Shown piece by piece: positions 8,492 to 38,826 of a stretch of DNA of 40,484 nt. This DNA comes from Candidatus Poseidoniales archaeon (lineage in GTDB: Archaea; Thermoplasmatota; Poseidoniia; Poseidoniales; Thalassarchaeaceae): the NCBI GenBank assembly GCA_028821675.1, contig JAPKFG010000004.1, positions 1 through 40,484 of the forward strand, in the 5' to 3' direction. The position numbers and the translations under genes are program-made. The notes beneath the pieces are model-generated. The model made no database searches, had not been told where the DNA came from, and saw nothing but the letters and a program-made list of their open reading frames with translations. Position 1 is the stretch's first letter. Each line of letters starts with the position of its first letter.

Positions 8492-8512
8492 TTCACCTCA
8501 TACTGAGGTGAA
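8492..8512. repeat. Perfect inverted repeat, 9-bp arms, 3-nt loop (TTCACCTCA-TAC-TGAGGTGAA)
   Basis: Read directly; lies between the MBL gene stop (8517) and the pilin start (8453). Confidence 0.85.
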
Positions 8513-8516
8513 GATT

Positions 8517-9317
8517 TCAACGCGACAGGATCTCTGCTTCCGCCTGCCCGAGCCAGTGGCTGAATTCCGGTCCATTCTGCGTTGAGACTCGCAAATCTCC
8601 TGACCAATTTTCATTCTGAAACAACACTTCGCTTTCGGCGAGATGTGGGGCATTGTTTTTCTCGGAGAGATGACACAGAACAACACTTTTTGTTTGAGGA
8701 CCTAATATTTCCGCCAACAAGTCTGCAGTTTGCCGATTAGAAAGGTGTCCGCCTCGTCCCGATATTCGTGCTTTGAGATGTGCAGGATACGGACCTAGAG
8801 TCAACCGTTTTGCATCATAATTTGACTCGATTGAGATGTGTGCGCAACCCTTGAGATGTTGAATCAACTCCTCTGTCGGTTCACCCAAATCAGTCACTAC
8901 GGCGGCCCGGCCATTTGAGCCCGAATTGATGATGAATCCGACGTTATCCGCACCATCGTGTGGAATTGGCACAGGTAGTACCGACAAATCCGGCGAAATC
9001 TGCATGCGTTCAAGGGCCTCAAAGATACGGCATTGATTGATTGGATCGAATCCAAGTTGCGCACATGTCGTGAAGTTCGCGAACAATTGTGCCCCATGAC
9101 GTTTTTGGAAAATCCGAGCTCCTTGAACATGATCTGAGTGGTGGTGACTGAGAAGGATGGCATTTATTGACTTTGGATCAACTCCAATTTGTGCTAAACG
9201 ATGCTCCATCTGGCGTCCGCTGAACCCGCAATCGATGAGCACTTTCGACTCCTCTGTTTGCAGCAGCGTCGCATTGCCGCGGCTGCCCGAACCAAGGTGT
9301 GTAATCTCGAGTGTCAT
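8517..9317 (-). CDS. MBL-fold metallohydrolase, YycJ/WalJ-like
   Basis: MTLEITHLGSGSRGNATLLQTEESKVLIDCGFSGRQMEHRL...ILLSHHHSDHVQGARIF: HxHxDH metal motif and SGSxGN start typical of YycJ-like proteins. The ORF extension to 9737 runs over the divergent promoter region and is rejected. Confidence 0.88.
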   Translation of the reverse strand: MTLEITHLGSGSRGNATLLQTEESKVLIDCGFSGRQMEHRLAQIGVDPKSINAILLSHHHSDHVQGARIFQKRHGAQLFANFTTCAQLGFDPINQCRIFEALERMQISPDLSVLPVPIPHDGADNVGFIINSGSNGRAAVVTDLGEPTEELIQHLKGCAHISIESNYDAKRLTLGPYPAHLKARISGRGGHLSNRQTADLLAEILGPQTKSVVLCHLSEKNNAPHLAESEVLFQNENWSGDLRVSTQNGPEFSHWLGQAEAEILSR

Positions 9318-9566
9318 CCTAACCTTAGGGACGGCCGACCGTACACCCCTTGAATGAAGCGCTTCATGATGGAATAAGAAGGCCATTTTAGATACCCTAG
9401 AAAAACGCCGAACGGTAATTTTTTTCAAGGTGATATTATCTATTTCACCGTCCCAAATCCAACTATTTCGATAGAAATACCTGACATTCCGTCCGAACGA
9501 CGCTCCATCAGCATCATAAGCGTGAGAGCGGGGATGCGGCTGTGGGTATAACCCACAGGTGAGCCC
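9318..9566. promoter_or_regulatory. Divergent intergenic region, AT-rich core
   Basis: About 250 bp between divergent starts at 9317(-) and 9567(+); AT-rich block 'taatttttttcaaggtgatattatctatttcacc' around 9416-9449 with a small dyad GGTGA...TCACC. Exact TATA/BRE not assigned. Confidence 0.45.
9540..9558. repeat. Perfect inverted repeat, 8-bp arms, 3-nt loop (CTGTGGGT-ATA-ACCCACAG)
   Basis: Read directly; ends 8 nt before ATG at 9567. Confidence 0.88.
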
Positions 9567-12500
9567 ATGCGTCGAAAGCAAACTGCGCTCTTGATTACGG
9601 TCCTTATTCTCGGCTCGATGATTTTCGTCAGTCAAATTCGTCCCAGTAGCCCGGTTCAATCGGTTCACCCTGGCGACACTACAGGCGAAGGCCCCCCGAT
9701 TACAGACCGAGACAAGGATGGAATGCCTGATCTTCACGAGGAAGCTTTCAGTGAATCCGTGTTTCTGGATTTAGGAGACCGTTCCCGAACGATTCCCGGT
9801 TTAGATCCGGATAACGGAACGGACAATCAGAGTGATCACGATTATGATGGCCTGACCGCGTTGATGGAATATTGTTGGCCTTACAGTTTGGATTCATGTT
9901 TCACTAACAACCGGACTGGCCTTCCAGGCAAACCTTCGGAAATTTCTGAGACTGGTTTGCGCTGGTATCTTGATCCGCGATCTGCTGACACCGATGGCGA
10001 TGGTTTGCCAGATGGATTTGAGGTTGCGATGTGTATGTCGAAAACCGGATATGAAAACGTTTCACACGTATGGAATTGCGATGCATTCGATCCACTGAAC
10101 AGCAGTGATGGCCTGATTGATAGTGACAGATGCCGCGATCTCACATTAGGCTGCGGTGATGGCTTCGATGTTGATCGAAATGGTATTATTGAACCGCACG
10201 AGTACTATACGAATGCCGAGGAATATATGTACGGCGCACCTGAAAATTGGGTCACTGAATTCGATGGTCTTCGGTGTTCTGGTGACTCGGATGACATTCC
10301 ACCTCTGGTCAATCCTTGCCGTACAGAAGAGACGCGTCCGACAGGTGAATCTGGCTGGCTTGGCACGGATCCTCTAGACAATGATACCGACTATTATCGC
10401 TGGGTTGGCAATCCCGGTCAAGCACTTGGTCAGACTCAGAAAGGCGATGGTATCGTTGATGGATGGGAGATTTACTTCCAACTCGACCCTCTCAACAGCA
10501 GTGACGCACTAATTGACAGTGATTGGGATGGCTGGGATTTCAATCGGGATGGGGCCATCTCCCCCGACACCTCAAGTTCGACGCTCGATCTAGGTGAGGT
10601 GTTCAGCAATCTAGAGGAGTACACCGTCTATCGTGATGATGGCAATTGGGTCACGGCTGGTGTCAAACACGCCCCTCTCGGCGTTGCAAGTCAAACGGTG
10701 ACCACATTTGATCAAGGCACAACGCCGAGTTTATTGCATCATAATGCGCATTCAATCTTCTCGGATGATAGCCATGGGCTGATCTATGTTGGGACCATGC
10801 GCGGCGTTACCGTCATGAACCCTTCAATGAATTATTCCAATCACTTTGAGTTGCCTTCAGGGGTTGATTTACTCGATTTGTATATGTGGTCAGATGGCGG
10901 TGATGATGGTGTTCTTCTTTTGTCTACGACTTCGGGTCTCATGACCCTTGCCCTAGATGTCGATGGTCAAATCTCATCCGTGGTCGATGACATTGAAACT
11001 GAAGCCCTGAATCTGATGGTGCCTATTCAGACCGGTAGTGGTGGGCAATCCATCCTGCTCGGCTTTGGTGCGGACCAGAGCGTTTGGCGCGTCACCCTTG
11101 ATTCACAAGGCCTCATCAGTTCTCCGACCACAGTCGTGCAACTCACGGCAGCCCTTCAACAGCAAGAGAATGCGACTGTAGAGACTGCAGTACATGTTGT
11201 TCTACCCAGTGAAGGCCCCCGTTTATTCGTGGGAACTGATCGCGGCTTACTGATGGCCAACAGTTCCGATTTTGTTGGCGGCTTCGAGTCAACTTGGATT
11301 TTTGATATCAGCAATGCCGAGGATTTCGTGATGCCAGCCGATGCCATTGATTCAGCCTTGGCCGCTCGCGTACAGACGCTATTTGTCGACGGCCCCCGTG
11401 ATGCCAACGGGGATATCACCAGTCCACAGACTCTCTGGGTCGGGACCCGGGGTGGTGTTCACCAATTCGATTTGATTGTCGGTCCATCGACCCCCCTTGG
11501 TGCATTTTCGTACGATCGAATGAACAATGAAGAAGAATTCACCGCCAATGATGTTCTTTCGATATTACCGCTAGGTGACGAGGTGATTATCGGTTCTCAG
11601 TGGGGCTCGTGGGCTCTTGATGCAGACCACACTCGTTCTTCTGGAGTGGAACCCGATCACACTCGAATTCCCGGACGCATTGTCGACATGACGGTGTTGG
11701 ATATTGACGGCCAACCCTTCTTGTTCGCAGCGTTAGATCCAGGTATCTACGCCAACATGGTTCTAATCGATCCATTATCGAATGATTCCGATGCGGATGG
11801 AATGCCAGATGGTTGGGAATTCATATTTGGATTAGATCCAACAAATCCCTTTGATCGCGATGATGATCCCGATGCCGATGGCGTAAATTTAAATCCGGAC
11901 GACAACGAATATTTCGATCGAAGTTGGTCCAATCTCGACGAGTTCCGCTATGTTGCGACTTCTGAGCAGGGATGGAACAGTACTGACCCCCAATTGTCCG
12001 ACACGGATGGGGACGGCTTGTTGGATGGCGAGGAATATTGGGGATTCTTCCTCGAAAAGACGAATTTCACCTGCCATTACCTCAATGGTGAATACCTGTG
12101 TGATGAACCAACAGGACAAGCCGCTCGTACAACTTACATCACCGGTTGGTCAGATTCTGGCGCTGGTGGCGGCACAGACCGCAGCATCGATCCGACGAAT
12201 ATCGATACAGACCAAGATGGAATGCCGGATGGTTGGGAAATCCAATATCGCCGTTGGATAGGACAGACATTCCATGGCGGAAACGATTGGTCTCTAGATC
12301 CCACAGATCCTACGGATGCGTTTGATGACGCGGATGGAGATGGTCTGACGAATATCTGCGAATATCAATGGCAACAAATTCGCCTTTTCGTCCTCGAACA
12401 AGGTCTGTACACACACAATGAAACTGCAGAAGGGGCTGCGGGCTGGGTCGACACAGACCCCAACCTCGCTGATTCTGATGGTGATGGCCTCCCTGATGGC

Positions 12501-15272
12501 TGGGAAGCCCGATACACCTGTTCCTGGTCCTCTGCTCAAGAGGGTTTGAATCCACTGAATGGTTCTGATGCAGGGAACAATCCTGATGGTGATGGATATG
12601 ACGTGAATCACGATGGTATCTTGCAACCAGATGAGATGTTGACCAATTGGATGGAGTATTACATGTCATCCTTAATCATGCTAGGGGATGTCGACCAAAA
12701 TGGCAATCCATTGCCAATAACCACATCACTGTTCAACGATTCATGGAATGGCTCGGCGACCGAGCCGTTCGGCTTCTATGTGACACAGGAAGTCATTGAC
12801 GACCAACCCCTTGCCCCTCAGGGGGACCAAGGCACCAGCGATCCATTGAGTCGTGACACTGATCAAGATGGCATGCCCGATGGTTGGGAGGTGTACTTCG
12901 CTCGCTGGGATGTGTACAATGATGGCTGGACGCTGAATCCGGTCATGGAGTTAGATTCCCTCGGTGATCCTGATGGGGATGGGATGACCAATTGGGAAGA
13001 ATACAATTCAATCGGTTCAAATTACACAGAGACAAACCCGGACCAATCCAGTCCTCAGTACTACGTTTTCGGCGTGGCAGGGATAGCCTCAATTCAAGTT
13101 TGGAATGAAGCTGGTTCGATGACACCATTTGGTGCCTTCATTACTCCGGAACAGATTGCCATTGGCGGGCGCACGTGCGATCCAAACAACCCAGACACAG
13201 ATGGAGACGGTATGTATGACGGAATTGAACTACTCTTCACGCAATGGAATCAGAGTGATATGGTTTGGACTCTGAATCCAATGGTTGCTGGTGATGGTCA
13301 TTATGATGCAGATCATGATGCCTTGACTGATTTACAAGAATTGAATCTGACCGTACAGAACCCTGTCAATGGCGGCTTATCGCCACCCGATGCTCCACGG
13401 ATGTGGGAAGAGGCCATTGCGATAAATGAGAATGCATTCTTGCAACGAATCAATTCGATGCTATTCGCCAAGGGCAATCGAGCAATGATTGCAGCTGAAC
13501 AATATCTTGATTGGCGCAGCAGTCCGGAAATCCCCCCTCCCCCTCTTTTGTCGACGATTATCGGCATCACAGATCCAACCAACAATGATTCAGACAATGA
13601 TCAGATGATTGATGGCTATGAGTACTGGTTTACCGAATGGGATTTGGATGGCAACCATTGGGAGATGAACCCTCTCACTTCAGCAGATGTTGATTTCGAT
13701 TCTGACAATGATTCGTGGGATTGCAACGGTGATGGGGTAATCGACGACAATGAATCCTATGACAATCTTGCCGAATATCAGGCTCGAATCTATGGTAACT
13801 ACGACCAACGTTTCACCGTGCCACCCGAGTTCGGTCTGGTCAGTTACGGGCGCGACATGATGAATGCTCACCAGGAAGAGACTGGAATGACTGAATTCCA
13901 AGCCCGCGGTCTTCTTTACGATCTTTTCGTCGCAAAGGATGTGATGAGCAGCGAGAGAATGCTGCGCATCAATGACGCATATTCAGACAATTGGAATTTG
14001 AGTCTTTGGGGAATCTCGGATCCAACTCACGCCGATTCTGACGGTGATACGATGCCAGATGGTTGGGAATTCTGTTATTCCATTTACACCGAGACTCTAC
14101 CTATGAACAGCTGGCGTTGGAGTTTGAATCCCGTGAATCCCCTCGATGTGGATTACGATCCCGATGCGGATGGATGGTTTGACCGTACTTCAGGAGATAT
14201 ACCAGCCGAGCAAGGTTCGTGGGACTCACGAACATTCACACCCTATGATTCAAGTCAGCAGCTTTCCCCTGGAAACAGCCCCCTATTCTTTACCAATATT
14301 CAAGAGTGGGAATTCGGAACACTACCAATCTCCAACGATACCGATGGAGATGCCATTCAGAAGGTTCGAGAAGAATCGAATGGAGTGACAACCGGGTATG
14401 ATTATTCATGGACACTCAGCGATGGCCGTGAGGTGTACAAGTTCGGTACCAATCCCATTGACGACGATACGGACGGTGACATGCTTCCAGACTGGTGGGA
14501 GCACGATACTGGATGGAACGAATCCAATGACAATTGGTCCTCATTCCTTCACATCAAGGTTGTCTGGGAGGATTTCGGAGCAACCAAGAAACCTCTGAAT
14601 GTTTCCGGGATGGATTTGGCACGCCCTAACATGGAATGGACTTGGGCCACCTTCGACCCACGCGACCCCACAGATTCCACCGCAGATCCCGACAATGATG
14701 GTGGCTGGGATTGCTCCGGGCCAACCTGCATTTACATCCCGTACAATAACTTCCAGGAATTTTATGGAAATACCACTTTGGCGAGTGCCACTCAGGTTCG
14801 AGGTTCACCGTTACTTTACCAAGGTGAACAAATTATGGAATGGTGGCAATTGCGTGGATATCTGTTGCAGACGGGTACGCCGAACGACATCTATGCCAAT
14901 TATTTCCGCATGTATCGAATCAACACAACCGATGACCTGTATGCCAACGTACTCTACGACAACGATATCGATTACATGCTTCTCGACCCGACCGATGATG
15001 TCTCTATCTGTAGAGGTGATTGGACTGACGATTGGGAACGACGTTGGGGTACTTTTGACCGATTCCCCAACATTGGCCAAGGTGAGTATGTATGGGGTTG
15101 GTGGAACCTCGATATCGATGGGGACAACATCGCTGATGGAACGGATCCAATCAACTACGATACTGATGGTGATTGGCTGAATGATTGGTTTGAGATTGAT
15201 GACGATATGGTTGATGGTGTTCGCGGAAATGGCGGCTCCCCCATCCGATATGACGATCGCACAACCACATGA
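9567..15272 (+). CDS. Giant secreted protein with thrombospondin type 3-like (DxDxDGxxDGWE) calcium-binding repeats
   Basis: Signal-like N-terminus MRRKQTALLITVLILGSMIFVSQI; repeated 'DTDQDGMPDGWE', 'DSDGDGLPDGWE', 'DADGMPDGWE', 'DGDTMPDGWE'; no obvious C-terminal TM. Confidence 0.88.
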   Translation: MRRKQTALLITVLILGSMIFVSQIRPSSPVQSVHPGDTTGEGPPITDRDKDGMPDLHEEAFSESVFLDLGDRSRTIPGLDPDNGTDNQSDHDYDGLTALMEYCWPYSLDSCFTNNRTGLPGKPSEISETGLRWYLDPRSADTDGDGLPDGFEVAMCMSKTGYENVSHVWNCDAFDPLNSSDGLIDSDRCRDLTLGCGDGFDVDRNGIIEPHEYYTNAEEYMYGAPENWVTEFDGLRCSGDSDDIPPLVNPCRTEETRPTGESGWLGTDPLDNDTDYYRWVGNPGQALGQTQKGDGIVDGWEIYFQLDPLNSSDALIDSDWDGWDFNRDGAISPDTSSSTLDLGEVFSNLEEYTVYRDDGNWVTAGVKHAPLGVASQTVTTFDQGTTPSLLHHNAHSIFSDDSHGLIYVGTMRGVTVMNPSMNYSNHFELPSGVDLLDLYMWSDGGDDGVLLLSTTSGLMTLALDVDGQISSVVDDIETEALNLMVPIQTGSGGQSILLGFGADQSVWRVTLDSQGLISSPTTVVQLTAALQQQENATVETAVHVVLPSEGPRLFVGTDRGLLMANSSDFVGGFESTWIFDISNAEDFVMPADAIDSALAARVQTLFVDGPRDANGDITSPQTLWVGTRGGVHQFDLIVGPSTPLGAFSYDRMNNEEEFTANDVLSILPLGDEVIIGSQWGSWALDADHTRSSGVEPDHTRIPGRIVDMTVLDIDGQPFLFAALDPGIYANMVLIDPLSNDSDADGMPDGWEFIFGLDPTNPFDRDDDPDADGVNLNPDDNEYFDRSWSNLDEFRYVATSEQGWNSTDPQLSDTDGDGLLDGEEYWGFFLEKTNFTCHYLNGEYLCDEPTGQAARTTYITGWSDSGAGGGTDRSIDPTNIDTDQDGMPDGWEIQYRRWIGQTFHGGNDWSLDPTDPTDAFDDADGDGLTNICEYQWQQIRLFVLEQGLYTHNETAEGAAGWVDTDPNLADSDGDGLPDGWEARYTCSWSSAQEGLNPLNGSDAGNNPDGDGYDVNHDGILQPDEMLTNWMEYYMSSLIMLGDVDQNGNPLPITTSLFNDSWNGSATEPFGFYVTQEVIDDQPLAPQGDQGTSDPLSRDTDQDGMPDGWEVYFARWDVYNDGWTLNPVMELDSLGDPDGDGMTNWEEYNSIGSNYTETNPDQSSPQYYVFGVAGIASIQVWNEAGSMTPFGAFITPEQIAIGGRTCDPNNPDTDGDGMYDGIELLFTQWNQSDMVWTLNPMVAGDGHYDADHDALTDLQELNLTVQNPVNGGLSPPDAPRMWEEAIAINENAFLQRINSMLFAKGNRAMIAAEQYLDWRSSPEIPPPPLLSTIIGITDPTNNDSDNDQMIDGYEYWFTEWDLDGNHWEMNPLTSADVDFDSDNDSWDCNGDGVIDDNESYDNLAEYQARIYGNYDQRFTVPPEFGLVSYGRDMMNAHQEETGMTEFQARGLLYDLFVAKDVMSSERMLRINDAYSDNWNLSLWGISDPTHADSDGDTMPDGWEFCYSIYTETLPMNSWRWSLNPVNPLDVDYDPDADGWFDRTSGDIPAEQGSWDSRTFTPYDSSQQLSPGNSPLFFTNIQEWEFGTLPISNDTDGDAIQKVREESNGVTTGYDYSWTLSDGREVYKFGTNPIDDDTDGDMLPDWWEHDTGWNESNDNWSSFLHIKVVWEDFGATKKPLNVSGMDLARPNMEWTWATFDPRDPTDSTADPDNDGGWDCSGPTCIYIPYNNFQEFYGNTTLASATQVRGSPLLYQGEQIMEWWQLRGYLLQTGTPNDIYANYFRMYRINTTDDLYANVLYDNDIDYMLLDPTDDVSICRGDWTDDWERRWGTFDRFPNIGQGEYVWGWWNLDIDGDNIADGTDPINYDTDGDWLNDWFEIDDDMVDGVRGNGGSPIRYDDRTTT

Positions 15273-15281
15273 TTTCAATCC

Positions 15282-15312
15282 CGGGTCACGGCCCCTTAAG
15301 GGGCCTGACCCG
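15282..15312. repeat. Strong intergenic inverted repeat (CGGGTCA-c-GGCCCC-TTAA-GGGGCC-TGACCCG)
   Basis: 13 paired positions with one bulged C around a 16-nt perfect palindrome GGCCCCTTAAGGGGCC; no T-tract follows on the + strand. Confidence 0.85.
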
Positions 15313-15350
15313 TGGGGAAGAGTTTGATAGGATAGACCGAGGTCGATTCT

Positions 15351-20882: not shown

Positions 20883-20899
20883 TCAGGGGAGGCCGACTC

Positions 20900-21760: not shown

Positions 21761-21828
21761 CGCTCTGCCTCACCTGTTGCCTGCTTGTCCATCTTGTTCA
21801 ATGCTATGCATCCCTAGCGTCTCTATTC

Positions 21829-22407: not shown

Positions 22408-22442
22408 AATTGCTATGTTTGCCAATGGGGTCTTTAGCCGCA

Positions 22443-23686: not shown

Positions 23687-24733
23687 ATGGAACCCACTTC
23701 TGTGGTCGCCACGGTCATCCCCACGTGGCAGGAAGCCACGCATATCGAGCGTTGCCTTCGAAGTTTTATGGCCCAGACGTACCCCTCACACCTTCATCAG
23801 ATCGTGGTTTTGGATGGCGGTTCTACAGATGGTACAACTGCTATTGTTGAACGTCTTGCGGAGGAGAGTGTAAGTGAAGGAGGGCCGCAAATAACGCTGA
23901 TTGATAACCCCTTCAAATATGTCCCCCATGCGCGAAATATTGCGCTCGAATACCTCGATTCTGGTGTTGAATTCATCCTAGAGATGATTGGCCATGCATG
24001 GGTGCCACCTGACCATCTTGAAGTGCGTTTATCGCGATTCCATTCGATTGAGGCTGAATTGGGTACTCGACTTGGTGGACTTGGTGCTCGGGTTCTTGAA
24101 TCAGATTTGCCACTAGACAATGTTGGAAATTGGATTGAAGCCTCATTGGCCTGTCCACTGGGAGGGTCGGGTCAATTTGCTCGCTTCTCCAAAGACGGTC
24201 CGACGAAAATCCCTCCTTTCACATTGTATCGCCGTCAGGCTGTCGAAGCAGTTGGGGGTTGGAATGAAGGTTTCATCACCACTCAAGACAGTGAAATCAA
24301 TCTACGATTGATTGGCAATGACTGGCCTTTGTGGAGGACAGCGGCGACACATGTCAGAATGGCCAAGCGAACGACGGTGAAACAATGGTGGAGAATGGGC
24401 TACCGCTACGGTTTCTGGCGCATGAAACATGTCATCGACGCAAAATCCAGAATGCGCATCGGTGAGTTCCTGCCGTGGATTGGTCTTGCCATTGTTGCTG
24501 GATTAGCAATCGATGGGCAATCGACGTTTTTTCTGCCTAATTTCCTGTTACCAATCCTAGCCTATCTTTCGACCCTATTTGTGGTTGGAGGCGTCGAAGC
24601 TATGCGTTCAAACGATACTTCGATGATATGGGGTGTCCCTGCTTTGCTAATCCTTCTGCATACTTCATTCAGCATCGGTTTATTGGCCGGTGGATTCCGC
24701 CCCGGGAAGCCCCCCAATGACCGGGCCCTGTAA
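23687..24733 (+). CDS. Family 2 glycosyltransferase with C-terminal TM region
   Basis: VVATVIPTWQEATHIERCLRSFMAQTYPSHLHQIVVLDGGSTDGT; C-terminal hydrophobic helices. Start may be ATG 23672. Confidence 0.88.
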   Translation: MEPTSVVATVIPTWQEATHIERCLRSFMAQTYPSHLHQIVVLDGGSTDGTTAIVERLAEESVSEGGPQITLIDNPFKYVPHARNIALEYLDSGVEFILEMIGHAWVPPDHLEVRLSRFHSIEAELGTRLGGLGARVLESDLPLDNVGNWIEASLACPLGGSGQFARFSKDGPTKIPPFTLYRRQAVEAVGGWNEGFITTQDSEINLRLIGNDWPLWRTAATHVRMAKRTTVKQWWRMGYRYGFWRMKHVIDAKSRMRIGEFLPWIGLAIVAGLAIDGQSTFFLPNFLLPILAYLSTLFVVGGVEAMRSNDTSMIWGVPALLILLHTSFSIGLLAGGFRPGKPPNDRAL

Positions 24734-25577: not shown

Positions 25578-25637
25578 TTGTCAAACGTCGGGTTGAAGAA
25601 CAGGCGTCAGAACGCGGGAATAGACGGGGACTCGTAG

Positions 25638-26780: not shown

Positions 26781-28544
26781 TTACTCATCTTCCATGAGAA
26801 GTGCCCGAGCCGGAATCGCTGCCAGAGGCTTTCCTTCTACCAGTCCTGAAAGGTGCAAGTCGAGCCCAATCGCCTTACCTTCCAATTGCAGTCTCAGGAA
26901 TCGTGTGCTGCCGACCTCTAGTGTGTCTAGGAAGATTTCATCACCGTCGTAAAGTGAATTTGGAGATACCTTGGTGATTTGCCATGAAGGGCCACCTGCT
27001 GCTTCAAAGCGAAGAGCAGCCAATTTCCATGGTGCTTGCTCCACATGAATTCCCACCAGTAAACTGCCCGGCCCCATTCGCCAAGCCTTCAGTGTGACCG
27101 AATCGGTGTGATGGGTCAATGTCGCTTCACCCATCTCGGCGACGGTTGCTTTCCACTGCACTTCTTCTAACATTTCCAAAGCACTGATGATTTCATGTTC
27201 GCTACCATCAGTTTCGATTAGTCTGGCCAATCGCCCCCGAAGGCGCTTCAATCGCCCCCGTTCGTGAGCTTGCACCTCATCGGCCAATTTCGTCCCCCGC
27301 AAACTCCACAGAACATATCCCATCGGTGCCAGCATCAATAATCCAATACCGATGTAAAATGGGATGAATTCTTTCCATCGATCAACAATCTCACCTGCTT
27401 CAATGGGTGCATCATCTTCACTGGTGACATTTATTGTTTGTAGAATCAGATGATATCCGTTGGTCCCGATTGCTCCATCTATGCGACTGACCTTGACCAA
27501 GTGATATCCTGGTGTCATGTTGAGGCCCACCGCACTAGTTCCATCTACGACATCCAACGGAGTTAGGAATTCACCTGAGTTGTTCCATGATTGGATTTGC
27601 ACCATAGCATCATCACCTTCGATTGTCGCAATGAGTCGGTGTGTCTCCCACGTTTCTCCTGGTATGAGAATCGGATACACATCGACAGAATCCTGTCCAC
27701 TGAGATTTCCATTCGTCGTCCAGCGTTCATTCTCGATGGCCACCGCCTCGTTATGGAATCTAGTCTCATCGACTGTGTTGGGGCAATCATGCGGACACAA
27801 TTCATCGCCCTCGGATAGGATGGTTTTGTTCAATGACCACACTCCTGTAACCCCCTCTGTTCTTGCCCGGATGGTGAATTCATAATTCTCAAATCGTGAA
27901 TCCACCGCTGGTGTGTGCAAGGTCATGGCCGTAGCATTGTCGTCGAAATCAAGCTCTGCCACCTCTCCACTGGGCAAATGAGTCATGTATCCTACGAATT
28001 CCGTCATTTCCCCGCCAAACCATTGAATCTCAATGTCCGCATTTCCGCCAGTCGAGAAGTAAGTACGATCTCCTTCTGTGTCAGATTCATGGATGTATCC
28101 AGAGGCAGTCAAGTTCCCTAAGACGATTTCGTTATCTGCAGAATTAGAATGGACATAGATTTGATAGGAGTTCGGACTTGTGAAATTGGTATTGGATATC
28201 TCAATCCACATGGTATTCCCAGTTCCACTGAGCAGGAAAGTCATGGAGTCCCCTTCTTCTTCACCGTGAACCGCACCATCTTCACGAACCGTGATTTTCA
28301 GTGGTTCGTCTGCGGATACTAAATGGATGAAATGAACCGCCCCCGTATCATCACCTAGCGTAATGTTGTCGAGATCCTGCGGGTCACTCAATTGACCCTC
28401 ATAGATGAGTGTCGGCGTGTCATCTCCCTCCCAATCCAACACCGGACCGTTAACTGTTCCGACGCTGTTGAGCTGTTCTGCCGGAATCGGTGTTACACTA
28501 ATCAGAATGAGCAACAGTGCGAGAACCACTGCTCGTGTGCGCAT
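26781..28544 (-). CDS. Type I membrane protein with pre-peptidase C-terminal-like ectodomain and about 190-aa cytoplasmic domain
   Basis: Signal-like MRTRAVVLALLLILISVTPIPA; beta-rich ectodomain ('YQIYVHSN'); TM 'FIPFYIGIGLLMLAPMGYVLWSLRG'. Confidence 0.75.
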   Translation of the reverse strand: MRTRAVVLALLLILISVTPIPAEQLNSVGTVNGPVLDWEGDDTPTLIYEGQLSDPQDLDNITLGDDTGAVHFIHLVSADEPLKITVREDGAVHGEEEGDSMTFLLSGTGNTMWIEISNTNFTSPNSYQIYVHSNSADNEIVLGNLTASGYIHESDTEGDRTYFSTGGNADIEIQWFGGEMTEFVGYMTHLPSGEVAELDFDDNATAMTLHTPAVDSRFENYEFTIRARTEGVTGVWSLNKTILSEGDELCPHDCPNTVDETRFHNEAVAIENERWTTNGNLSGQDSVDVYPILIPGETWETHRLIATIEGDDAMVQIQSWNNSGEFLTPLDVVDGTSAVGLNMTPGYHLVKVSRIDGAIGTNGYHLILQTINVTSEDDAPIEAGEIVDRWKEFIPFYIGIGLLMLAPMGYVLWSLRGTKLADEVQAHERGRLKRLRGRLARLIETDGSEHEIISALEMLEEVQWKATVAEMGEATLTHHTDSVTLKAWRMGPGSLLVGIHVEQAPWKLAALRFEAAGGPSWQITKVSPNSLYDGDEIFLDTLEVGSTRFLRLQLEGKAIGLDLHLSGLVEGKPLAAIPARALLMEDE

Positions 28545-28548
28545 GTGC

Positions 28549-28563
28549 CGGGCCTACGGCCCG
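28549..28563. repeat. Perfect inverted repeat, 6-bp arms, 3-nt loop (CGGGCC-TAC-GGCCCG)
   Basis: Read directly; in the 65-bp divergent gap, 4 nt from the minus-strand ATG at 28544. Confidence 0.85.
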
Positions 28564-28609
28564 CCGCCTTTAGAATCATTCAAGTCAAGTGCATTGACAG
28601 CCTCGATTC

Positions 28610-30370: not shown

Positions 30371-30401
30371 AGCCAATGAGCCATAGTTGGGGGGTGTTAA
30401 A

Positions 30402-30420
30402 TACCGCCCATAGGGCGGTA
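30402..30420. repeat. Perfect inverted repeat, 8-bp arms, 3-nt loop (TACCGCCC-ATA-GGGCGGTA)
   Basis: Read directly; ends 6 nt before ATG at 30427. Confidence 0.9.
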
Positions 30421-30426
30421 GGATGT

Positions 30427-33400
30427 ATGGCCACTGCCTATCGAACGAACCACCTGAGCACCACTCTCGTCATGCTGATGATTCTCTCAGCATTGGCGCC
30501 AATGATGGCTCCACACACTGGAATCGAAGTTGTATCTGATGATGACACGCATCCAAATGCACTCAAACAGGTCGATCGAACAATGGAAACCGGAGGTCGA
30601 GCACCTTGCTCTGCCGTACAGAGTGACGGCGGAACTGCGGGAGATGCTGGAAATACCACAGCTACTGCCAAATCACAAGGTTCTGACCCCACTGTGACCA
30701 ATATGGATGGTTGTGTTGACACCACTGATGAACAGGATTGGTATTCAATGCAGGTTTCTGCGGGAAAAGATATCGTTGTTGTATTGCGTGATTTTGGTGA
30801 TGGTACAAACACAGATTTCGATTTGTTACTCGCAGATAGCACCGGTGGAAACCAACAAACTGGTACAGGTTATGTCGATTTATCCATGACCTATGCGGCA
30901 ACTGAGCGTGTTGAATTCACAACTAATTCATCCACAGCAGGTATGTTTTACATTCAGGTTTGGCAATATGCTGGAGATGGGAATTACAAAGTTGACATTT
31001 GGGTAAATACCTCTGTTCCAAAGCCCGATCTTGCTGTGAATTCAATCAGTGGACCCGCGAGCGCAATGGCTGGCGACACGGTCAATGTCACGTACACAGT
31101 AGAGAATTATGGCCCCGGCGACACTAACTCAACAAATCCGTATGATGTCGTGTTTATTCTATCTACAGACGACACTTATGATTGGGGGGATATAATCGTG
31201 GATAGCCATGTTACAGGACCTTACCTTGCAGCAGGAACCAATTCAGTCGAGAGCGCTCAGTTAACCATTCCCGCTGATATAGACAGCGACGATTATCACT
31301 GGATTGTATGGCCAGATGGCTGGGGCAATGTGACAGAGGCCGATGATCTCAACAACAACAACGCCAGTTCTGCAGTGACCACAATTTCGGGAATGCCTTG
31401 TCCGAATGTGGATGATGCATCAACGGGTGCCGATGTCGGAGAAGTCGAAGCAGATGCATATGACTTGGGTACAAATTTCACCGGCACAATCACTGGTTGT
31501 GTTTCCGGTGGAGACAAGGGTGATATGTACATGCTATCCATGGGACGCGGACAAAACATCACAGCCGTCCTCACGGCTGACAACTGGGATGCAGATCTCG
31601 ACCTCGATTTGTGGAACACCTCATCTCTTGACATCGATTCAAGCCTTTCCGGAAACAGCAATGAGACTGTGAGTACAGAAGGAACTGATGCCGATGGCGC
31701 TGCAGACACCTATTACATCAACGTCTCACAATTTTCTGGTCTCGCAAATTACACACTACAGATTTGGACCAATGGTACCATCTACGTGCCTCCTTATGAC
31801 TGCGGAATCCCTTCAGATTGGGGTCAATCCAATGCAGATGCCGGCGACAGCCGTGTCACCGCAATGAGTATCGGTGAAAACCCAGAAGCAAACGGTATGG
31901 GTTGTCTGGATATTGAAGATATGGCGGATGCTTACGGCTTCTCCCTCTCGGGCATGCATGGCATGACGGTGGAGTTAGAGTCCCACGATGGTGAAAATAT
32001 GCACCTGCAACTGTTCGATGGAAGCGATGATACGTTGGTCAGCGAGATGTATTCGACCAACGGTTCAGCGATGGCCGACACGACTGGATTGGATACAAGT
32101 GATCTCAATGGTGGCTACTATGTCATCATCAACGCGCACGAGGCAGAGGGTTGGTACAACCTCTCCTTCACACCGATTGAACCACCTCTGCCGAACCTTG
32201 TGGCCATCGCAGTCAACTGTCCAGTGAGTGGTCGAAGCACCGGAGAGCAGGTTTTCTTCGGCGTAGACATCAGTAGCGATGATGGCCCGATGGATGCCGC
32301 ATTCGCATGGCAAATGAGTTTGGTCGATGAAAATGGAACTGAAGTCATGGTCCTACTCCAAGACGCATATTCAGATGCACTTGATGGCAACGATGGAATC
32401 ATCATCACTGATGGAGACCTAGTTCTATTGGACAGCGCAACAATTTCTTCAGGAAACTACACCTGTGTATTGACCGTAGATGGCGGGGATGTCATTATCG
32501 AGTCCAATGAGACTGACAATACACTGACATCCGCAGCGTTTGAAATCATCAATTATGATGAATTGTTTGCGGATGACCTTGATCGCGACGGCGTACTCAA
32601 TGATGACGATGCTTGTCCAAACACACCTGGTGACTCGACGATGGACCGCCTCGGTTGCCAAGATGCAGATGGTGATGGATATTCCAACGGTGGAGACGTT
32701 TTCATTTACGAAGATACCCAGTGGAACGATACTGATGGTGATGGCTTCGGTGACAACAACGGGCCCAATGACTACAATGGCGACGACTGTCCAAATGAGC
32801 CCGGCATCATGTCTGGAACCAACGGAACGGGTTGTCCGCTTTGGGTTCCTGACACAGATGGTGACGGAATCAGTGACCAGAACGACGCATGTCCTGGGAC
32901 TGAAGCAGGAATTTCTGTTGATGCTCTTGGCTGCCCACTCGTGCTTGCGGATGATGACGATGACGGCGTCCCAAATCTGTTTGATTTGTTGTGCCCGAAC
33001 ACACCTGCTGGCACACAGGTCGGTATCCTGGGTTGTATCGATTCTGATGGCGATGGAATCGATGATTTTGCAGACCACTGTCTGAACACACCAGTGGGTG
33101 CTGAAATTGATGAGACGGGCTGTTCTACAGAAGAAATCCCGGTTGAACCTACAGGAGATCCCGCTAATCCAGGCACACCAGATACTGGTGGAGATGGTGA
33201 CCAATCAGGCGATACTGAGGGTGCAAGTGGTGACGAAACTGATCTGATGCTCTACATCATGATTGCAGCAGGAATTGTACTCCTGCTTGTTGTGATTCTC
33301 GGCCTCACTCTAGTTCTACGCTCGGGTGGCAAAGGTGGTGACCCCACAGAGCAAGCTTGGGCGACCGCAATCACTCCTGAGCAGCAGGCATACGAGCAAC

Positions 33401-33468
33401 AGTTGATTGGAATGGGATACACTGCTGAACAGGCTAGAGCCTACGCGAGTCAGTACTTCCAGAATTGA
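30427..33468 (+). CDS. Surface protein with PPC-like and CARDB-like domains, thrombospondin type 3 repeats, TM helix and UBA-like C-terminus
   Basis: MATAYRTNHLSTTLVMLMILSALAPMMA signal; 'KPDLAVNSISGPASAMAGDTVNVTYTVENYGPGDT' CARDB-like; 'DTDGDGISDQNDACPGT' TSP3; TM 'LMLYIMIAAGIVLLLVVILGLTLVL'; tail 'QQAYEQQLIGMGYTAEQARAYASQYFQN'. ORF start 30316 rejected because it overlaps arcS. Confidence 0.88.
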   Translation: MATAYRTNHLSTTLVMLMILSALAPMMAPHTGIEVVSDDDTHPNALKQVDRTMETGGRAPCSAVQSDGGTAGDAGNTTATAKSQGSDPTVTNMDGCVDTTDEQDWYSMQVSAGKDIVVVLRDFGDGTNTDFDLLLADSTGGNQQTGTGYVDLSMTYAATERVEFTTNSSTAGMFYIQVWQYAGDGNYKVDIWVNTSVPKPDLAVNSISGPASAMAGDTVNVTYTVENYGPGDTNSTNPYDVVFILSTDDTYDWGDIIVDSHVTGPYLAAGTNSVESAQLTIPADIDSDDYHWIVWPDGWGNVTEADDLNNNNASSAVTTISGMPCPNVDDASTGADVGEVEADAYDLGTNFTGTITGCVSGGDKGDMYMLSMGRGQNITAVLTADNWDADLDLDLWNTSSLDIDSSLSGNSNETVSTEGTDADGAADTYYINVSQFSGLANYTLQIWTNGTIYVPPYDCGIPSDWGQSNADAGDSRVTAMSIGENPEANGMGCLDIEDMADAYGFSLSGMHGMTVELESHDGENMHLQLFDGSDDTLVSEMYSTNGSAMADTTGLDTSDLNGGYYVIINAHEAEGWYNLSFTPIEPPLPNLVAIAVNCPVSGRSTGEQVFFGVDISSDDGPMDAAFAWQMSLVDENGTEVMVLLQDAYSDALDGNDGIIITDGDLVLLDSATISSGNYTCVLTVDGGDVIIESNETDNTLTSAAFEIINYDELFADDLDRDGVLNDDDACPNTPGDSTMDRLGCQDADGDGYSNGGDVFIYEDTQWNDTDGDGFGDNNGPNDYNGDDCPNEPGIMSGTNGTGCPLWVPDTDGDGISDQNDACPGTEAGISVDALGCPLVLADDDDDGVPNLFDLLCPNTPAGTQVGILGCIDSDGDGIDDFADHCLNTPVGAEIDETGCSTEEIPVEPTGDPANPGTPDTGGDGDQSGDTEGASGDETDLMLYIMIAAGIVLLLVVILGLTLVLRSGGKGGDPTEQAWATAITPEQQAYEQQLIGMGYTAEQARAYASQYFQN

Positions 33469-33470
33469 GT

Positions 33471-33483
33471 GTAAGGGCCTTAC
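33471..33483. repeat. Short inverted repeat GTAAGG-G-CCTTAC immediately after a stop codon
   Basis: 6-bp arms, 1-nt centre, 2 nt after TGA at 33466-33468. Confidence 0.6.
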
Positions 33484-33504
33484 CAAGATGACGACGGAGG
33501 ATAA

Positions 33505-33521
33505 TCCCCCCGTAGGGGGGA
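33505..33521. repeat. Perfect inverted repeat, 7-bp arms, 3-nt loop (TCCCCCC-GTA-GGGGGGA)
   Basis: Read directly; in the rps15 5' intergenic region. Confidence 0.85.
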
Positions 33522-33595
33522 ATTTCCAGTTCAACTCATAGCGGAGCGGTTATGAAGGGGCAGCAGGTCGGCGGGACACTCGAGGTGCTCTATAC

Positions 33596-34051
33596 ATGGC
33601 TCGCATGCACAGTCCAGGTCGCGGAAAGAGCGGTTCAACCAAGCCCCTTGTCGACAAGGCACCTGAGTGGTCAAACACCGATCCCAAAGCCGTGACTGCA
33701 CTAATCCTTTCTCTAGCTGAAGATGGACACAACACTGCCACTATTGGCACCATTCTCCGCGATCAGCACGCGGTCCCCGATGCCCGCCTCGTTGTCGGTA
33801 AGAGAATCGGCCAGGTTCTCGCTGAAAATGATATTACACCTCAGTATCCAGAAGATATGATGAGTTTGATGCGCCGCGCGCTTCGCCTCATCAATCACCT
33901 AGAATCAAATCGTAAGGACCTCCACAATTCACGTCAACTTGAGTTGACAGAGAGCAAGATCCGCCGCCTCTCTCGCTACTACCAAGGCCATGGCCTACTC
34001 GACACAGAATGGGCATACAAGCGTGATCAACTCCGCCTCATGGTGGAGTAA
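33596..34051 (+). CDS. rps15: 30S ribosomal protein uS15, archaeal type
   Basis: MARMHSPGRGKSGSTKP...; C-terminal 'HLESNRKDLHNSRQLELTESKIRRLSRYYQ' is the S15 core. Confidence 0.95.
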   Translation: MARMHSPGRGKSGSTKPLVDKAPEWSNTDPKAVTALILSLAEDGHNTATIGTILRDQHAVPDARLVVGKRIGQVLAENDITPQYPEDMMSLMRRALRLINHLESNRKDLHNSRQLELTESKIRRLSRYYQGHGLLDTEWAYKRDQLRLMVE

Positions 34052-34112
34052 TCAACTCCTGCCGTTGTGGTCAGGTCTTTGAACCGTAAGGGGAACCACA
34101 ACTCCGCCCCCC

Positions 34113-34979
34113 ATGTCACTACTTGACCTTCCAGCCTTCGCGACAGCCGCACCCGTGTTGCGTGAGGCAGCCCTCAAATTGCGAACGTCAGAGTCTTCTC
34201 TTACCATCGCTGCTCCGTTGAACGAGTCTGGTATCTTCGCCTCTGCCTTACTCGAAGCTGCACTGTTGGATGCCGGAATCCCCTACCAACGACGTTTACG
34301 GGAGAATGTGGAAGCTGCGAATGGCCCGAGCATTGTGATTGATTCAGCCCCGGTTTCTCAACTGCAATCTATTGTAACAGAACCTTTGTGCATCCATCTT
34401 GCACCGCTTGAAGTCGAGGCTCTGGTCGCTAGTGGGGGGGATTCTCGTAGGGGTATTCTCTCTCCAGTGGCCCTTGCTGCTGGACTAGGCAATTCGATTG
34501 CTCCTTCGGGGTCGATGTCACGTCTACTAATGCCTTGGGTCTTGGCTGGAAATTGGCTTTCCAGCGGTCTTGAGCATACCTACGATCCCGTGTATACTGT
34601 TCTTCGCGATTATCTATCGAATGAAGGATACATTCGGGTCGTGCCGATGCCCGAAGTCCCGGATGTTCACCCCGATAGTTTGCCGGGAATCGATTCGGTC
34701 GCACTTGGTGCTGTTCGTGATCGTTGGGGGCAACTCGATCTTGAAGGACGCGCTCAATCCCTGTCACATTTAATGAAACCATTGTTGGATGCGGAGTTGC
34801 CTTCAACTGCCCGTCTTGAGGAACTGGGTTGGCATCGCATTATGGCTGCTGGATGGGAGCGAGATTTGGCCAGTCAATTGTCTGGTTTCACCAAGTCATG
34901 GCGAGACAATACATCTGGCCGGCGCAGGCAAGCGAGTGACACCATCGATAGTCTGCTGCGAACCGGTCAGATGCCCTAA
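34113..34979 (+). CDS. Possible degenerate DHH/RecJ-like (GAN/Cdc45-like) protein
   Basis: N-terminal 'SSLTIAAPLNESGIFASALLEAALLDAGIPYQRRL' fits the strand-loop-helix layout of a DHH motif I region ('HxDADG...SAAIL...L...G') but lacks the acidic residues; directly downstream of rps15, where archaea often encode RecJ-like proteins. Confidence 0.45.
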   Translation: MSLLDLPAFATAAPVLREAALKLRTSESSLTIAAPLNESGIFASALLEAALLDAGIPYQRRLRENVEAANGPSIVIDSAPVSQLQSIVTEPLCIHLAPLEVEALVASGGDSRRGILSPVALAAGLGNSIAPSGSMSRLLMPWVLAGNWLSSGLEHTYDPVYTVLRDYLSNEGYIRVVPMPEVPDVHPDSLPGIDSVALGAVRDRWGQLDLEGRAQSLSHLMKPLLDAELPSTARLEELGWHRIMAAGWERDLASQLSGFTKSWRDNTSGRRRQASDTIDSLLRTGQMP

Positions 34980-37039
34980 CCTTCAATTCGCAGATTTCGA
35001 CCACATCCGCCGCATGGAATTCGCACCGGGCGTTCGGTTGTTTCAACTGGGTTAGATGTATTACAAGCGGGGCAATCCACAGTTGGAATATCTCTCGACA
35101 ATGCTTTTTCATAATCCTCTGAAAGAGACTCATCTCCAAGTACCCAATCGTTCTCATGTCGTGGGGAGATAATGGCCAAGGGCATCATCAGTACTGCGCA
35201 TGCGGTGGCGATTCCCATGACGAATGTTGGGGGTAAAGCGGAAAGTGCGTACACATAACTCATCATTCCTGTAAAGGCAATTGAAGAGATCCCCACAATC
35301 CATCTTGAACGATTTACTGTCAATCGAAGTCCCATTACAATTCCAGATACAAGCAACAATATTGTGGAAAGCAAGGTCACGAATGGGGAAAAAAGCGCAC
35401 TTCCAGCCACTGCATATTCGACCTCAAATTTGTCATTGTCTGAAATCCCATCAATCTCGATTGTGACTACTTCTGCTAAACCGACTCGATAGTGCGTCAC
35501 AGTCATGTCTGCTGGAATATCTTCCTTCATGACACTATACAGTCCAGAAAACGCACTCGTGGTCAGTTTGACATTCAAATCTACTGAGGGATCCCCATTC
35601 ATCGTCCAAATTCCATTTCCGAGTTGGGGTCTAATGAAATCGGAAATGAGCATAAGTCGCTCTTGTCCAGTCAATGCTAGGACAACATCAATTCGGATTC
35701 GCATTGGTGCATCATCAATCCCTGTGACCCCCATGAGGTCAATCATGACCTCGGGATTCATATCGAACAAATCGGCCTCAAACAAACCATCAGGGTTGAG
35801 TGCTAAACCCGTATTTCCCAAGAACAACTCAAGATTTCGTGTACTACTGTCAATGTGAGTCAATAGTGCTTCTTTTTCCACGTCATCGACTTTGCCGTTT
35901 TCTCTCAGAGTAGAGGCCCCTGTGAATCCTTGAATCTGGGTGAATAAATGATCTGAGGGCAACGAGGAATTGCCAATGTTGTCCATCCCCCAACGCAACC
36001 AGGATGCCATGGAACCTTCAATTTCCAATTCAACAGTACGCGTAATGTGTGTTCCATCATATTTCACATCAATGTCGACATCCAATCGACTGCTAACCGC
36101 TCTTGCCGGTTCCCCGAAGTGATAACTTTGGGTTCCTCCTCCGTCTTCAAATGTGATTTCATGATTTCTTCCGGTTGTTATGGGTATGTCGCCTCCATTC
36201 AACCAAATAGACAGATTAATCTGATAATTTCCATCTGATGGATTTGACCCTGGATTCCAGACAAACGGAACTTCGACGCCTCCAGATACGATGCTCGGTG
36301 AACGAACATCTGAAATGACGATGCCACCAATTTTGAACTCAAATTCTTCCAATGAAGACCACATTCGTTCGCCAAAGCCCGATTTCAAAATCACGGGGAA
36401 GAAGACCTCTTCTCCGACCACCAATGCATTCGGCATTTCGATTGTTACCAACGGAAGGGTTGCACGTAAGGCACTCCCCGTATCCTCGCCCCACATGAAC
36501 CGAATAGATGACTGATCACCCGGTTGTGTGAACATGACACTCCTCACCGCAAAAGTCACCTCAATTACATCGTTCATACTGATTGCAACCTGAGGAATTT
36601 CGATGTCTATTCCGACAAGATCCGATCCGGACATGAATGCCCCCGGTGTGCCACTTTCTGCTGTGTAGAGATTATTTCCAATCAACACATCAACGGTTGC
36701 ATTGGCATACATTCCTGCCGCATTCTCGACTTCATAGGCGATGTTGAATCTCCACGTAGACTCTGGCATCGTCGCACTTTCTTTCCATACAATGCTCCAT
36801 TTTGCAATCTCTTCAACGCCTTGTACAGATTGGCCGACTTCCTTTTCGTTGATTCCGACCAATTCATTCTCAAACGGCGTCATCGTCGCATTGTTGTTCT
36901 CCCCTATGAGAAAGAGTTCGAACTCACTTGGACCACAGCATACGATTTCAGCCGTTGCAGAAGGTACACTGAGTGGAATCATGGCCGCTAGTAACAGAAT
37001 CATGAGCCCGAAAGCACTGCGAGACTGGCCAGCCTGCAT
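34976..37039 (-). CDS. Exported multi-TM surface protein with C-terminal cytoplasmic zinc ribbon
   Basis: Signal 'FGLMILLLAAMIPLSVPSATA'; ectodomain; TM helices 'LFSPFVTLLSTILLLVSGIVMGL' etc.; C-terminal 'CPACNTSNPVETTERPVRIPCGGCGRNLRIEG'. Confidence 0.8.
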   Translation of the reverse strand: MQAGQSRSAFGLMILLLAAMIPLSVPSATAEIVCCGPSEFELFLIGENNNATMTPFENELVGINEKEVGQSVQGVEEIAKWSIVWKESATMPESTWRFNIAYEVENAAGMYANATVDVLIGNNLYTAESGTPGAFMSGSDLVGIDIEIPQVAISMNDVIEVTFAVRSVMFTQPGDQSSIRFMWGEDTGSALRATLPLVTIEMPNALVVGEEVFFPVILKSGFGERMWSSLEEFEFKIGGIVISDVRSPSIVSGGVEVPFVWNPGSNPSDGNYQINLSIWLNGGDIPITTGRNHEITFEDGGGTQSYHFGEPARAVSSRLDVDIDVKYDGTHITRTVELEIEGSMASWLRWGMDNIGNSSLPSDHLFTQIQGFTGASTLRENGKVDDVEKEALLTHIDSSTRNLELFLGNTGLALNPDGLFEADLFDMNPEVMIDLMGVTGIDDAPMRIRIDVVLALTGQERLMLISDFIRPQLGNGIWTMNGDPSVDLNVKLTTSAFSGLYSVMKEDIPADMTVTHYRVGLAEVVTIEIDGISDNDKFEVEYAVAGSALFSPFVTLLSTILLLVSGIVMGLRLTVNRSRWIVGISSIAFTGMMSYVYALSALPPTFVMGIATACAVLMMPLAIISPRHENDWVLGDESLSEDYEKALSRDIPTVDCPACNTSNPVETTERPVRIPCGGCGRNLRIEG

Positions 37040-37075
37040 GGCAGGGCGACCGTGAGATTCGACTTGAACTTCACG

Positions 37076-37089
37076 TACGCGCGCGCGTA
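37076..37089. repeat. 14-bp perfect palindrome TACGCGCGCGCGTA
   Basis: Read directly; between the gltX stop (37094) and the surface gene start (37039), both minus strand. Confidence 0.8.
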
Positions 37090-37093
37090 GGAT

Positions 37094-38818
37094 TTAACCA
37101 TGCAATCGAACGAGACGTCGGGCCCCGTTTTCTTCAATGCCCTCAAGAATCGCGAAACCCATCCGTTCAAGTTGGACAACGGTTCCATCAGGGAATTCAT
37201 TCACCTCTAGCAATCCTTTCGCCGACACCAGTTCACCATCTTCTTCAAGCAATAAAACAGCAGGCTGTGCCATATTTGTTGGAATCCAATGGACGATGGG
37301 TGTGTTGTCTTGACGGGCGATTTGCAACACTTCCCCTTCGCCTTTGTCGTTCAGTTGAATGTCCGCGAAATCTTTCAAACGAATTTTGTTTGTACTGAAA
37401 TCATCCGCAGCGATGTTCACTTCTAATACGTCGGAATCCAATGTCCATGTCCGAACGCCTTTATCTGGATGTTCCGGGTGAATAGGTAGGGTTACATTTG
37501 CTGGAACATCGACATCAGTTGTCTTGAGCACGATGGTTCGTGGTGCGCGAACAAATGACAACCGAGGAGCTTCCGCATCGACAGCCTTTGCGTTCAGACT
37601 GTTCAGTGTCGCCATGGGAACCGCGATATCCTTCTGAGTCAATCCGAGATCAATCCAGAACTTCCGCATAGCCTTGGCATCATACCCCCTACGTCGCAAC
37701 GCTCTGAGCGTTGGCAATCTAGGGTCATCCCAACCCGAGTATTGCCCATTTGCAATGTCTGATTTCATCTGAGACGTACTGAAACTACCGAACTCATGCA
37801 CTTTGACACGCCCCCAGTACATTGTTTCAGGATAGGTCCAACCGAACTTTTCATACAGCAAGGTCTGCTTTCGTGTCGAGTCCATCAAGTCCTTTCCTCG
37901 GACGATATGGGTCACTCCTTGGAGGTGATCCTCCACAGCACTTTGGAAATCAAGCAATGGCCAGACTTTGTATCTGTCACCGACCAATGGATGATTGGCG
38001 TGTTGAATTCGTAAAGCCGGCCAATCTCGAAGAGCCGGATTTGGCAATGTCATATCGGTCTTGATTCGAACTACAGCGCCACCGGGCTGAATGGTACCAT
38101 CATTCATCTGGGCCCACAAGTCGATGTTCTCTTCCGTTGATCGATTTCGACAGGAACATTCAGTTTTTGAGATTCTGAATTCTTTGAACGCATCACTAGA
38201 GCATTGGCATACATAGGCATGATTTTCAGACAAGGCCTTGGTTGCATATTCGAGGTAGACCTCCATTCTGTCAGAGGCTCTGAGTATCCGATCTGGAGCC
38301 CGCCCTGACAGCCAGGTGAAATCTTCTTCAATCAGGGCATAAGCTTCCGGGTCGGGTCGTTTTACCACAGCGTCAGTGTCGTCAAATCGAAGAATGACTT
38401 CACCATCATACATTCGGGCTAATTCAGCGTTGATGACGACTCCCCTCGCGTGACCAAATGATAGTGGCCCATTGGGATTGGGTGCAAACCGAAGAACGAC
38501 TTTCCCCACCTCAGCATTTGGCAAGGGGGGTAGGCCCTCTCGTCGTTCCTTGACCTTCTTCTCTAATACATCGGGAGATTCATCTTCTAGAATCGTGCGA
38601 ATATACTCCAATCCTTTCTCTACAGCCAATGAATTGGCTTCAGCAACTTGACTGGCAATGAATCCAGTCAACTCTTGTGCCCGAGAGCGCAAATCAGGAT
38701 TTTCCCCCATCACTCTCCCCATGACAGAGCCGACCTGACCCTGTCCATCATACTCGAGTGCGTTCTGTAGAGCGTACTTGCGCAGTAGTGCAACCACCTC
38801 CGGCTCGAGTTCGCCCAT
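37094..38818 (-). CDS. gltX: Glutamyl-tRNA synthetase, archaeal/eukaryotic type
   Basis: 'VLRFAPNPNGPLSFGHARGVVINAELARMYDGEVILRFDDTD', 'FGSFSTSQMKSDIANGQYSGWDDPRLPTLRALRRRGY'. Confidence 0.95.
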   Translation of the reverse strand: MGELEPEVVALLRKYALQNALEYDGQGQVGSVMGRVMGENPDLRSRAQELTGFIASQVAEANSLAVEKGLEYIRTILEDESPDVLEKKVKERREGLPPLPNAEVGKVVLRFAPNPNGPLSFGHARGVVINAELARMYDGEVILRFDDTDAVVKRPDPEAYALIEEDFTWLSGRAPDRILRASDRMEVYLEYATKALSENHAYVCQCSSDAFKEFRISKTECSCRNRSTEENIDLWAQMNDGTIQPGGAVVRIKTDMTLPNPALRDWPALRIQHANHPLVGDRYKVWPLLDFQSAVEDHLQGVTHIVRGKDLMDSTRKQTLLYEKFGWTYPETMYWGRVKVHEFGSFSTSQMKSDIANGQYSGWDDPRLPTLRALRRRGYDAKAMRKFWIDLGLTQKDIAVPMATLNSLNAKAVDAEAPRLSFVRAPRTIVLKTTDVDVPANVTLPIHPEHPDKGVRTWTLDSDVLEVNIAADDFSTNKIRLKDFADIQLNDKGEGEVLQIARQDNTPIVHWIPTNMAQPAVLLLEEDGELVSAKGLLEVNEFPDGTVVQLERMGFAILEGIEENGARRLVRLHG

Positions 38819-38826
38819 AGGGCGAA
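38810..38826. repeat. Perfect inverted repeat, 7-bp arms, 3-nt loop (TTCGCCC-ATA-GGGCGAA), overlapping the gltX start codon
   Basis: Read directly; the minus-strand ATG occupies 38818-38816, i.e. part of the loop plus the first base of one arm. Confidence 0.85.

Follow-up and report, generated by a model that had tools for sequence, protein, structure and literature searches.

The closest described counterparts of the inverted repeats (IRs) analyzed here are the promoter hairpins of phage N4. Their extrusion at physiological supercoiling requires a C:G closing pair and a loop with a 5' G and a 3' A, and the identity of the non-conserved stem bases was found to be extraneous (PMC4496689). Like the IRs described below, the early promoters of the N4 virion RNA polymerase carry a small DNA stem and a 3-nt loop with C:G closure, a 5' purine and a 3' A. 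N4, however, has three such promoters in one phage, with partly conserved stems, constant placement with respect to the start site and one dedicated polymerase, whereas here there are dozens of copies per archaeal genome, with arms unrelated between loci, variable spacing to the start codon and, unlike N4, a T-centred loop. REP/BIME elements are likewise short extragenic palindromes present in many copies per genome, and the REP core carries GTAG. Their palindrome sequence is common to the copies, whereas here the arms differ at each locus and the REP-associated Y1 transposase (PF01797) was found in 0/17 genomes; a REP/RAYT origin was rejected on both grounds. Intrinsic terminators also place a GC-rich stem in intergenic DNA; the IRs here, unlike terminators, have no downstream T-run, are missing from convergent gaps and are present in divergent ones. 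Perfect IRs have been described as statistically enriched close to gene starts, both for cruciform-capable IRs of E. coli (PMC6060812) and in a genome-wide IR survey (PMC13155455). In their accessible portions, both papers present heterogeneous IRs, including those of E. coli promoters and 5'-UTRs, and describe no common loop rule; the survey, as outlined there, set its arm length above nine bp, so that most of the 6-9 bp arms seen here would escape it. In the open-access literature searched, we found no description of the present IR class.

The window, by which we mean the whole stretch of 40,484 nucleotides analyzed, belongs to an archaeal genome of 1.62 Mb in 142 contigs. Its genes include archaeal-type rpS15, GltX, RNase HII and DnaJ, and by rpS15 its nearest named relatives are MAGs of Ca. 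Thalassarchaeaceae (Marine Group II, Poseidoniales); CM001443 (MG-II) represents the sister family. The first-pass annotation had listed six perfect triloop IRs, and all six are present with the arms and loops that it gave. The IR TTCACCTCA-GTA-TGAGGTGAA (8492..8512, minus strand) lies between the stop codon (8517) of a metallo-beta-lactamase-fold gene and the ATG of the gene at 7419-8453(-). The IR CTGTGGGT-ATA-ACCCACAG (9540..9558, plus strand) occupies a divergent gap and ends 8 nt 5' of the ATG of a 1901-aa gene, 9567-15272(+), whose product is probably secreted, as judged from its hydrophobic N-terminus. These two sites are atypical because they are closed by A:T and T:A, respectively, without a C:G pair, and orthologues of neither were recovered among the relatives compared. 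CGGGCC-GTA-GGCCCG (28549..28563, minus strand) is found in a divergent gap, 4 nt 5' of the ATG of 26781-28544(-); its arms are kept in 4/6 relatives' orthologues, with GTA or GGA as the loop. Six nt 5' of the ATG (30427) of a CARDB-domain protein gene is TACCGCCC-ATA-GGGCGGTA (30402..30420, plus strand), with arms kept in 5/7 relatives' orthologues (loop ATA or AGA) and degraded in 2. TCCCCCC-GTA-GGGGGGA (33505..33521, plus strand) precedes the rpS15 ATG (33596) by 74 nt. Finally, TTCGCCC-ATA-GGGCGAA (38810..38826) overlaps the ATG (38818) of the glutamyl-tRNA synthetase gene 37094-38818(-); it is conserved in 11/12 same-genus sequences, and its right arm doubles as Gly-Glu codons.

Two further dyads named by the annotation were also confirmed, namely the loop-less TACGCGCGCGCGTA (37076-37089), flanked by the minus-strand genes 34976-37039 and 37094-38818, and the dyad at 15282-15312, whose core is the TTAA-centred perfect palindrome GGCCCCTTAAGGGGCC (15290..15305). 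All six IRs lie between genes or across a start codon, as had been claimed, with the caveat that the 9540 IR also falls within the longest possible ORF of the adjoining minus-strand gene (GTG start at 9737); choosing the ATG at 9386 as the start of this neighbor keeps the IR intergenic. The list comprised only cases with RTA/TAY loops and left out 19 other triloop IRs of the window, most of them coding. The triloop IR AATCAATC-TAC-GATTGATT (24295-24313) lies deep within a gene and is without conservation.

Triloop IRs form a class that exceeds chance expectation by far. The window contains 25 perfect triloop IRs with arms of at least 6 bp versus 12.7 +/- 3.3 in dinucleotide shuffles, and the excess is concentrated in C-closed RTA loops (5 versus 0.12 shuffled, and 3 versus about 0 in gene gaps). 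When 668 kb from this genome were scanned for perfect IRs with arms of at least 7 bp, their number peaked at a loop of 3 nt (141 versus 51-92 at other lengths). RTA/TAY loops account for 47 of these 141, nearly the entire excess, and trinucleotides of this kind constitute 3.6% of the sequence; C occupies the closing position (-1) in 41 of the 47 and position -2 in 31. The null-model set comprised 1.41 Mb from four same-genus species, with ORF-based gene calls and a coding fraction of 0.95, and the 534 gaps analyzed were each at least 20 bp long; start positions carry errors because the gene calls are mechanical. For arms of at least 6 bp, these gaps hold 140 triloop IRs versus 19.1 shuffled, 91 C-closed R-N-A triloops versus 0.88, and 71 perfect IRs with a C:G-closed RTA loop versus 0.18 (maximum of 2 in 60 shuffles). 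Three is the outlier among loop lengths (145 versus 12-58 at the others).

The loops follow the rule C-[R-N-A]-G. Among C-closed gap loops GTA is the commonest (51), and A at loop position 1 is also frequent; the others are ATA (23), GAA (8), TAA (6), AAA (5), GCA (3), AGA (2) and GGA (2), with hardly any more. A TA-containing loop had been proposed as the common element: the triloop stands, and what is shared is specifically the C-closed R-N-A core, together with some cases of a smaller second form, CC-TTAA-GG. This second form also has unrelated arms and includes six gap palindromes across the four species, at 15290-15305 in the window and at L032 4419 and 15947, L089 1454, L112 11094 and L151 15235. 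No GNRA or UNCG tetraloop class was found among the gap IRs. The proposal that arms are unrelated and geometry alone is shared is correct in that shape is conserved over arm sequence, and slightly too strong in that the innermost positions are biased toward CC...GG. Because this inner CC...GG alone is shared and a common half-site is absent, the IRs are not copies of one operator, and because arms differ at each locus they are not a dispersed repeat, both as originally stated. At L083 448-513 we observed a tandem pair, GGCATCCC-ATA-GGGATGCC and CAGGACC-ATA-GGTCCTG, with centres 49 bp apart.

The IRs are placed in gene 5' flanks, the location first suggested for them. The 91 C-closed R-N-A IRs are distributed over codirectional (64) and divergent (27) gaps, with none in convergent gaps, where about 6.8 would be expected (30 gaps, 4,101 bp; Poisson p about 0.001). 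It follows from this absence that they are not terminators, in agreement with the annotation; intrinsic terminators were further rejected for want of downstream T enrichment, and no T-run or fixed AT-rich element was found flanking the IRs. Among codirectional cases in the four species, 37 have R-N-A on the sense strand and 27 on the antisense strand, and over distinct sites in all same-genus DNA the ratio is a neutral 46:42. Spacing to the start codon varies from about -10 to >300 nt; some hairpins are 0-10 nt from the start codon or have arms resembling a Shine-Dalgarno sequence, and several sites apparently precede the likely promoter or come right behind the upstream stop codon. A motif search in 540 upstream sequences from the four species revealed TTSAA, preceded by CG at a distance of about 7 nt, as an element that is common ~40 nt 5' of start codons and is a candidate promoter box of Poseidoniales; the EM motif resembles no clear TATA/BRE. 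Start sites of MG-II have been published, in a study whose main text gives no MG-II promoter motif (PMC5069720). A fixed promoter spacing was rejected, since hairpins occur on either side of TTSAA at variable distance, with a modest peak at 16-25 nt.

At orthologous loci, the hairpin of each locus is conserved amid drifting flanks. Arms are 87-100% identical versus 36-56% for flanks at three loci; arm sequences differ between loci and remain Watson-Crick within each. The rpS15 hairpin is present in 16/16 same-genus sequences, with loops GTA/GAA/TTT, and is absent from other genera; pairwise identity is 87% and 92% for the left and right arms versus 41% and 51% for the flanks. The compensatory arm changes in orthologues for which the annotation had suggested a test do exist, at rpS15 (TCCCTCC/GGAGGGA, TCCTCCC/GGGAGGA and GCCCCCC/GGGGGGC) and at a UDP-sugar-dehydrogenase-like locus. 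The rpS15 changes include compensation at two inner pairs and the replacement of the outer T:A by G:C, the outer pair being unpaired in several species. The UDP-sugar-dehydrogenase-like locus shows one compensatory G:C to A:T change and is weak evidence for arm-only selection because its 3' flank shows 98% conservation as well. At a putative NADH-dehydrogenase-like locus, GAACACC...GGTGTTC is found in 15/15 sequences (arms 100%, flanks 39% and 56%) around TAC, TAT, TTC or TAA, and at an RFC-like locus GACCATAC...GTATGGTC is kept in 16/16. The middle loop base varies among orthologues (GTA/GAA, ATA/ACA, GTA/GGA, ATA/AGA) and R-N-A is nearly always kept. Comparison with a shuffled null and with orthologous loci had been put forward as the check on the original claim; it was carried out, and the claim survived.

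The class has a limited taxonomic distribution. Genomes of all 17 species of the genus contain 39-79 copies of CCCRTAGGG each, versus 12-40 of the reversed control, and most other genera have no such excess. In the sister family, one genus (G030, G035, G058) has 38-46 copies versus 4-7 for the control; there, 21/30 cores have arms of at least 6 bp, none is in a convergent gap, and among 17 codirectional cases the RTA strand is sense in 15 and antisense in 2. Elsewhere in Thalassarchaeaceae we observed single conserved cases, CGGCGCC-RTA-GGCGCCG and TCGGGCC-TAC-GGCCCGA. An excess of C-closed R-N-A triloops was not found in 150 kb of E. coli.

We assign the six window sites, two of them as atypical members, to a clade-specific class with 6-12 bp arms and a C:G-closed R-N-A triloop in gene 5' flanks. 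The data presented here establish that the class exists, together with its loop rule, its placement, its strict complementarity and the retention of each locus's hairpin amid drifting flanks. The explanation that we prefer, and to which we give about an even chance, is that these IRs are promoter-proximal DNA minihairpins (cruciforms) that respond to supercoiling or are recognized by a structure-specific protein. Negative supercoiling, for example that left behind RNA polymerase at promoters, would extrude the repeat as a small stable cruciform. Such a minihairpin could alter promoter access directly, as a supercoil-responsive switch, or a structure-specific protein may read the C-RTA-G loop and bind it, with a predicted effect on expression in both cases. 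Each locus would have its own arms because arms need only pair, and these would stay frozen because single changes break a pair. Kimura's compensatory model leads one to expect frozen stems in a large population when no neutral wobble intermediate is available, and the arms fit that expectation. Complementarity is strict: inner stems are interrupted in just 2/134, and the first stem breaks (GT 14, AC 10, other 62) show no wobble preference. We infer that selection acts on DNA instead of mRNA, which is favored in this genus because the IRs are strand-neutral, lack a G-U preference and have triloops rather than stable RNA tetraloops. The nearness of the loop rule to the extrusion requirement of the N4 hairpins also speaks for DNA. 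Loop energies from ViennaRNA are uninformative between DNA and RNA, since all relevant triloops score alike and the DNA parameters make no distinction among triloops. Counting against DNA minihairpins are the 15/17 sense bias in the second genus, unneeded by a purely symmetric DNA element although it could come from a factor reading one strand, and the lack of fixed spacing to start codon or TTSAA; frozen arms could instead mean that arm sequence itself matters. A broader and somewhat doubtful proposal is that these loci form a genome-wide, sequence-independent archaeal DNA-hairpin code, with N4-like R-N-A cruciforms at dozens of promoters per genome, each with its own arms, whose reader would be supercoiling alone or a putative protein specific for the loop or the structure.

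The annotation had offered both a 5'-UTR RNA hairpin and a DNA-level site; our evidence leans toward DNA, and the 15:2 sense ratio in the second genus (combined p=0.014) keeps RNA alive. Possible, though with appreciably less than an even chance, are 5'-UTR or intercistronic RNA hairpins controlling mRNA stability, processing or translation, as the location 5' of genes and not in convergent gaps would allow; the sites closest to start codons or with arms like Shine-Dalgarno sequences agree with this, as do internal mismatches in the few interrupted stems (GT 3-4, AC 0). Against such hairpins speak the unbiased orientation in this genus, G-U breaks that are no commoner than other mismatches, arms that do not drift via G-U intermediates, the non-GNRA/UNCG loops and the sites apparently ahead of promoters or right behind an upstream stop codon, and the window has no Rfam match at the gathering threshold. 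We consider it unlikely that the IRs are operators for one dimeric DNA-binding protein or for several, with half-sites symmetric by chance and a C-RTA-G centre. The common CC-RTA-GG core, the strong conservation of orthologous sites and the promoter-proximal position on both sides of TTSAA would suit operators, whereas no arm motif past the core is evident over about 130 distinct sites, self-complementarity is perfect over 6-12 bp at each locus, and the changes at rpS15 and the UDP-sugar-dehydrogenase-like locus are compensatory rather than one-sided. Perfect symmetry with unrelated arms and a patchy distribution could also be produced by mutation (template switching that perfects quasi-palindromes) or be left by palindromic mobile elements; this we consider very improbable given that orthologous hairpins are retained as flanks saturate, that the loop rule is specific, that convergent gaps are avoided and that the transposase is missing. 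To some explanation outside these four we assign the smallest probability.

Differing arms with a near-constant triloop at dozens of gene fronts suggest that folded DNA shape, not sequence, helps control genes. If selection does keep promoter DNA hairpins regardless of their arms, a cellular organism would offer an unusual example of genome-wide regulation by shape instead of sequence, and the in vivo relevance of small cruciforms, an old question, would become directly testable. The IR class is also a handle on gene control in Poseidoniales, which are abundant uncultivated marine archaea, and wobble avoidance, frozen complementary arms and a fixed loop rule are a general means to separate DNA-level from RNA-level palindromes.

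A secreted-protein regulon was rejected as weak (odds ratio 1.5, p=0.08); genes downstream of hairpins are longer (median 428 versus 338 codons, p=0.003). Between hairpin and ATG, the rpS15 leader (33541-33595, AGCGGAGCGGTTATGAAGGGG...GGTCGGCGGGAC) shows strong conservation within the genus and can be recognized across Poseidoniales (GCGGAGYGRTTAAGAAGGGG); it may be a promoter or a leader RNA of rpS15. Conserved strings resembling it, such as CGGTTAAAGAGGGG...AAGTCGCCGG and CTCATATAGGGGGAGCAGGTCGGCGG, recur ~20-40 bp downstream of hairpins, as at L005 3703 and L115 8323, with similar ones in L076, L136 and L145.
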